Source: Streptomyces sp. XD-27 (GTDB lineage Bacteria > Actinomycetota > Actinomycetes > Streptomycetales > Streptomycetaceae). From it: a DNA stretch of 64,000 nt. Under the pieces are notes generated by a model that was not told the origin of the DNA, searched no databases, and worked only from the letters and a program-made list of their open reading frames with translations. Shown one piece after another: positions 34,901 to 34,969 of the stretch; the first letter of the stretch is position 1, and every line of letters starts with the position of its first letter. The position numbers and the translations under genes are program-made. Location: the NCBI RefSeq assembly GCF_030553055.1, contig NZ_CP130713.1, forward strand, positions 5,890,001 through 5,954,000. The letters are read 5' to 3'.

Positions 34901-34969
34901 GGGCGCTGGGAGTACGAGGGCGCTGGGAGTACCGGGGGGGGGGGGGGGGGGGGGGGGGGGGGGGGGGGG
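34901..34969. repeat. 17-bp tandem duplication running into an uninterrupted G36 tract
   Basis: GGGCGCTGGGAGTACGA (34901-34917) is repeated as GGGCGCTGGGAGTACCG (34918-34934). Its last G begins a run of 36 consecutive G residues (34934-34969). The tract is 53-88 bp upstream of the PAP2 start. It could be a slippage-prone switch, a G-quadruplex former, or an assembly artefact. Confidence 0.85.

Follow-up and report, generated by a model that had tools for sequence, protein, structure and literature searches.

A G36 tract probably within the 5' coding part of a PAP2 phosphatase gene, and its relation to the conserved RNA Scr5676, in Streptomyces sp. XD-27

The genome sequence of Streptomyces sp. 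XD-27 contains an uninterrupted run of 36 G residues close to a gene for a membrane phosphatase of the PAP2 family. The question is whether this run is a switch, a tolerated repeat or an error of the assembly. The stretch of DNA analysed here, called the window, is 64,000 nucleotides long and corresponds to bases 5,890,001-5,954,000 of a single 7.55-Mb contig. On balance we favour the view that the run, which is C36 on the strand of the gene, is a repeat expanded by slippage within the 5' coding part of the PAP2 gene. Slippage, a leaderless start and a translated 5' extension are all inferred, and the assembly could be wrong at either of two C-runs, C36 or the C9 run of a neighbouring hairpin loop.

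The tract and its surroundings

The features needed first are the following.
34934..34969, minus strand: C36 tract (G36 on the plus strand), probably in the linker of the PAP2 reading frame (sequence, TRF, linker position and phase).
34901..34932, no strand assigned: period-17 duplication directly adjoining C36 (read from the sequence).
34799..34877, minus strand: tandem repeat of 18 bp in 4.4 copies, likewise in the linker (TRF).
33910..34881, minus strand: PAP2-family phosphatase frame from an internal ATG, 323 aa (PF01569, 39.2 bits, cut-off 27.2).

Read directly from the window, the 36 G residues are consecutive, and TRF describes them as G x 36.0 with a match of 100%. The run begins one base past the period-17 duplication (copies at 34901-34915 and 34918-34932), and 53-88 bp separate it from the ATG at 34881 on the minus strand, exactly as the initial annotation had described. 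That the run is exceptional was also borne out. A search of both strands of the 7,549,390-bp genome for G14 gave 23 overlapping matches, all of which belong to this one run, and none on the other strand, which leaves it as the sole G or C run of at least 14; there is one run of exactly 10. The length is far beyond that expected by chance at 72-75% GC. The assembly sequence is the source for both the length of the run and its presence in the strain itself.

The gene belongs to the PAP2 superfamily by its PF01569 score and by a PSGH motif, which is found in all 138 loci scored, the window included. The relatives in named genomes (n = 19) comprise 18 from Streptomyces and one from a Dactylosporangium MAG. 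A degenerate 9-bp repeat of 12.7 copies lies within the PAP2 frame at 34186-34299; it is an insert between membrane segments and is absent from the other PAP2 relatives compared.

The start of the PAP2 reading frame

Upstream of the tract lie several conserved elements; Scr5676 and the hairpin had both been missed by the initial annotation.
35080..35209, minus strand: Rfam RF02832 Scr5676, interpreted here as the translated 5' end of PAP2 mRNA (score of 117.3 bits against a gathering score of 56).
35205..35207, minus strand: conserved ATG, probable PAP2 start codon, two bases inside Scr5676 (ATG in 136/138 loci, in frame in 123/138).
35216..35221, minus strand: -10-like TACGGT, 8 nt before the conserved ATG (conserved in 138 loci), a putative promoter element.
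34990..35031, minus strand: conserved hairpin of 15 pairs with a poly-C loop (pairs and compensatory changes in 120 loci; fold).
35006..35014, minus strand: C9 run of the hairpin loop (C7 in most relatives), the likely site of the frame offset (core lengths).
34737..35207, minus strand: frame opened by the conserved ATG in the assembly, 156 aa, with no membrane domain (no NCBIfam match).
35419..36759, minus strand: gabT, 4-aminobutyrate aminotransferase, upstream neighbour on the same strand (TIGR00700, 591.9 bits, cut-off 506.65), the start codon not being fixed by these coordinates.

A set of 142 loci, one per genome, was compared. It consisted of the window, 29 loci from a DNA search of the genus, 100 fetched stretches and 12 further loci, and it represents mainly the best-matching rows of that search and not a random draw. 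One locus was dropped for want of a detectable domain and three for want of the ATG motif, leaving 138. The conserved ATG and PAP2 share a frame in 123 of these, and that frame is free of stops in 122 of the 123. They are out of frame in the remaining 15, among them the window. The distance from this ATG to PAP2 varies from 222 to 489 nt, and 34 of its 49 distinct values are divisible by three (p = 2.7e-7). The ATG is the only in-frame start common to all 123 loci, the next commonest being present in 35, and in 81 of them no ATG or GTG whatever lies between the hairpin and the domain. With one relative as query, 1365 homologues were above threshold; among the 120 listed, 90 are annotated as starting at the conserved ATG, 15 keep the later part of the extension with another or variant start, and 15 are without it. 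In-frame copies are the rule among the relatives examined. The initial annotation had placed the tract in a plain upstream region; the 123 in-frame loci make it more likely that C36 lies inside the 5' coding segment of PAP2, probably in the variable linker between the 15-bp hairpin and the membrane domain.

The Scr5676 match covers the full model (1-130 of 130), and in the Rfam consensus itself an ATG at the third base opens a frame that reads M R D T P R P Q G T V G. The region is widely shared: a DNA query of 34600-35430 matches 385 of 392 genus genomes, and among the matches listed, the window's own apart, most cover about 34981-35294, to the right of G36, at 75-88% identity. Over 107 aligned blocks of 186 nt the frame of the conserved ATG is free of stops in every one, while the second frame is stopped in all and the third in 20. 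This block carries a weak codon signal: variability at third codon positions shows no significant rise (p = 0.11), and the synonymous share comes to 0.367, where 0.344 is expected. In folding the block outperforms shuffled sequences (z -5.15), so it is also constrained as RNA. Because the frame is kept over varying distances, because so many homologues are annotated from this ATG and because the Rfam consensus carries the same frame, at least part of Scr5676 appears to be the beginning of the PAP2 coding sequence. A different ATG, in GATCGGATG, was considered as a start of translation and set aside, since it falls outside the frame common to PAP2 and the ATG at the RNA's 5' end.

Gene callers often already use the conserved ATG, whereas Rfam and the reannotation of S. 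lividans list the stretch as RNA. In the S. lividans work it figures, in the passages available, as a transcribed RNA named 'Streptomyces RNA 5676' (PMC8079986), and the S. ambofaciens homologue of scr5676 is described in part of a further report as first predicted in a UTR and later added to the sRNAs (PMC8388888). In titles, abstract starts and passages of the literature on Scr5676, supplements excluded, no equation with the PAP2 coding sequence was found, and a search for 'SCO5675' gave no literature match. The Rfam entry is catalogued as an sRNA, whereas its match in the window is read here as a translated PAP2 start.

The mRNA may be leaderless, as suggested by the position of TACGGT 8 nt before the ATG and by an Rfam model that begins 2 nt before it. 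The first T, the A and the last T of this element are each 96% conserved over the 138 loci. Leaderless transcription is reported to be common in Streptomyces in parts of two studies (PMC8079986, PMC4681348). The motif GTGAAGAAGATGTGCGGG occurs upstream of the -10-like element, at 35270-35287 on the minus strand of the window, and recurs in many relatives. It had been proposed that the tract could set promoter spacing, but this is unsupported, since about 247 bp separate the tract from the conserved -10-like element, which precedes the ATG, and a generic promoter scan found no match.

The site of the frame offset in the window could be narrowed by dividing each of the 129 loci in which the hairpin was found into three parts. 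From the ATG to the hairpin core there are 186 nt in the window, which is the usual length, and the distance is a multiple of three in 122 of 129. From the hairpin to the domain there are 265 nt, C36 included, in the usual phase (123 of 129 loci; 36 of 41 distinct lengths share one phase). The core itself is 20 nt in 120 of 129 loci and 22 nt in the window. As the other two segments are in the usual phase, comparison with relatives places the offset of the assembly at the loop C9 and not at C36. A loop run of C8 is found in three other loci, all of them out of frame with PAP2, and a further locus with C9 is in frame by way of another indel. The loop C-run, shorter than C36, is kept across the related loci. 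It had been noted before that starts in other frames, near 35134 and 35330, might be joined to PAP2 by a change of one or two bases in the tract. That an upstream start in another frame is offset from PAP2 stands, and the frame at about 35330 does hold the ATG at 35207 that relatives use; it is C9, and not G36, that appears to put it out of frame. PAP2 in the window may be off, or started at the internal ATG at 34881, or the loop run may have been misread.

The hairpin was also considered as an intrinsic terminator and found no support as one, as the scan called none on the minus strand. Three terminator-like sites were called on the plus strand, at 35170-35196; these are opposite PAP2 and are formed by the first Scr5676 hairpin.

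Long G-runs in the genus

The most substantial rival is that the run is an artefact of sequencing or assembly, the true run being much shorter or the G residues filling a stretch that is hard to read. This has an appreciable but minor chance of being correct. Runs of at least G20 are present in 168 of the 392 genus genomes, and a number of them stand at contig ends, beside N, or are plainly false. The extreme case is one genome (G502) with runs of at least 1500, G168/C308 and a stretch of 166 identical bases, which is evidently false sequence. Four inverted pairs of runs within 150 bp were found, and these and the pair of G502 are all ordered G-run then C-run, as if reads from both sides ended in false G; they are possibly read artefacts or palindromes. 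There is a hairpin about 20 bp past the G36 run, and the completeness of the assembly is 96.92%, below that of most genomes in the DNA search. Against an artefact, G36 lies within a single contig with unique flanks, and the stability of folds beside 84 long runs in near-complete genomes shows no difference between the 5' and 3' sides (p = 0.62), a result by which strong folds beside the run were also rejected as a general cause.

Further evidence on this point comes from replication. When dnaA was used to locate the origin in near-complete genomes of few contigs, the G residues proved to be on the leading strand for 53 of 66 runs of at least 20 (p = 7e-7). The share is 39/47 in a first set and 14/19 in genomes not used before, and 53/64 overall without the two absurd runs of G502. 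G36 has G on the leading strand and is included in this count. The first set consisted of 42 few-contig genomes chosen for having a G20 run, with 90 runs of at least 16 in 81 clusters. Of these clusters 4 were mixed-strand and 4 lay on contigs lacking dnaA; 52 of the remaining 73 were leading. Ten more were dropped, of which 6 were leading and 4 lagging (origin far from mid-contig in five genomes, a run at the contig end in another). In the second set 18 of 80 genomes had runs, and 19 of the 24 runs were scored; the exclusions were the inverted pair of G502, two genomes with contigs without dnaA and one with its origin at a contig end. Runs of 16-19 show no significant bias (7/16 leading). Control runs of exactly 10 in 20 genomes are leading in 32 of 53 cases (p = 0.17; compared with the long runs, p = 0.024). 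The flanks have a slight base (GC) skew (+0.016, 66 loci), whose sign would add to the leading-strand bias. Since read errors should not track the direction of replication, many of the long G-runs in the genus are probably real, though the single case of G36 is not proven thereby.

As to the cause of the bias, co-orientation with genes was rejected: over 64 runs, the callable genes flanking leading runs were on the same strand in 17 cases and on the opposite strand in 18 on the 5' side, and in 7 and 26 on the 3' side. Where both flanks were called (30 of 64 runs), 13 runs have convergent neighbours and 2 divergent ones, so that a general role as promoter switch is disfavoured. Extension of the GnT type, in which leading-strand G tracts with a 3' T grow, is described for Pseudomonas and Salmonella in the portion of a report consulted (PMC12344412). 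It is a possible cause of the long leading-strand runs. In that report, as far as its passages go, the extension concerns short tracts; it resembles the runs here in its dependence on strand, whereas the latter are long. Such extension predicts loss of the T after the run, but the long runs show no clear lack of that base (12 of 53 leading runs against 161 of 554 short runs). No description of long G-runs as a class in Streptomyces was found among titles and abstract starts.

Slippage in a tolerant linker, and the case for a switch

Slippage in a tolerant linker is the simplest account of C36. In most relatives examined, the PAP2 frame runs from the ATG at the 5' end of Scr5676 through the conserved hairpin and a variable linker into the membrane domain. 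The linker varies from 16 to 324 nt between loci, and in the window it has grown by repeats, namely the 18-bp tandem repeat, the 17-bp duplication and C36. CCC encodes proline, so that C36 would be read as Pro whatever the frame. Such a linker probably tolerates expansion, and the tract may have grown by polymerase slippage, in a group without MutSL repair and in the strand position that long G-runs favour. Streptomyces is reported to be without MutSL, and loss of NucS had no considerable effect on indels, of which there were 9 in wild-type lines and 19 in the mutant (PMC11109965); the passages of that study used here are silent on homopolymers, and the link to C36 is our own. Because the lengths of C36 and of the loop run set the frame that joins the conserved start to the domain, any change not a multiple of three in either would shift one against the other, and PAP2 may vary among the cells of one colony. 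The tract may act as a functional switch, and it is not claimed here that selection uses it as one.

A fuller proposal would combine these elements. Scr5676 would be the translated 5' end of a leaderless mRNA, and the in-gene hairpin would either end transcription, giving the short RNA, or be passed when ribosomes follow closely; the poly-C loop would set the frame, and C36 would be a second tract, making a two-tract slippage switch here. It is put forward tentatively, and we regard it as unlikely. The stricter idea of a contingency locus, in which C36 and the loop C9 form a selected, reversible on/off switch of PAP2 like the pglX G-tract of S. coelicolor, is quite improbable. Given the proposed gene model, the two C-runs do lie where their lengths decide the reading frame, between the conserved start and the membrane domain, and the start and the domain are out of frame in the assembly; loop runs longer than C7 likewise accompany the three other out-of-frame loci with C8, and frame switching by G-tracts is known in Streptomyces from the part of the pglX report that was available (PMC4365076). 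It had been suggested that related strains be checked for a G-run at the same place; among the 128 other loci with the hairpin the longest linker homopolymer is 7 and C36 is not conserved. The prevalence of in-frame loci also means that the gene is usually on, and long G-runs, taken together, tend to be found 3' of genes and not at their starts.

We give little credence to the remaining rival, in which Scr5676 is genuinely non-coding and stops at the hairpin, with PAP2 beginning at 34881 or lower and the tract a neutral non-coding repeat, for although its record as a transcribed sRNA, its folding and its weak codon signal favour this, the frame is conserved through the RNA, hairpin and linker, most in-frame loci are without a start downstream of the hairpin, and the scan called no terminator there.

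The closest known systems differ in length and in evidence. The pglX tract of phage growth limitation is, like C36, a G/C run in a coding region whose length sets the frame; in the passages of that report it has 8 G, against 36 in the window, and both switching and phenotype were demonstrated for it (PMC4365076). The sortase-dependent pilus genes of Bifidobacterium breve are another actinobacterial case of an intragenic G-tract whose length decides the product; according to the portion of the report at hand, slippage and population spread were measured there, in a gene family other than PAP2 (PMC9187656).

The locus suggests that a coding region can contain a homopolymer much longer than is usual in bacteria. 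If a conserved Streptomyces RNA filed as non-coding is, as it appears, the coding start of a membrane phosphatase, any phenotype of Scr5676 would be read differently. The recurrence of G-runs in the genus, with their replication-strand bias, makes their origin and their stability without MutSL repair directly testable.
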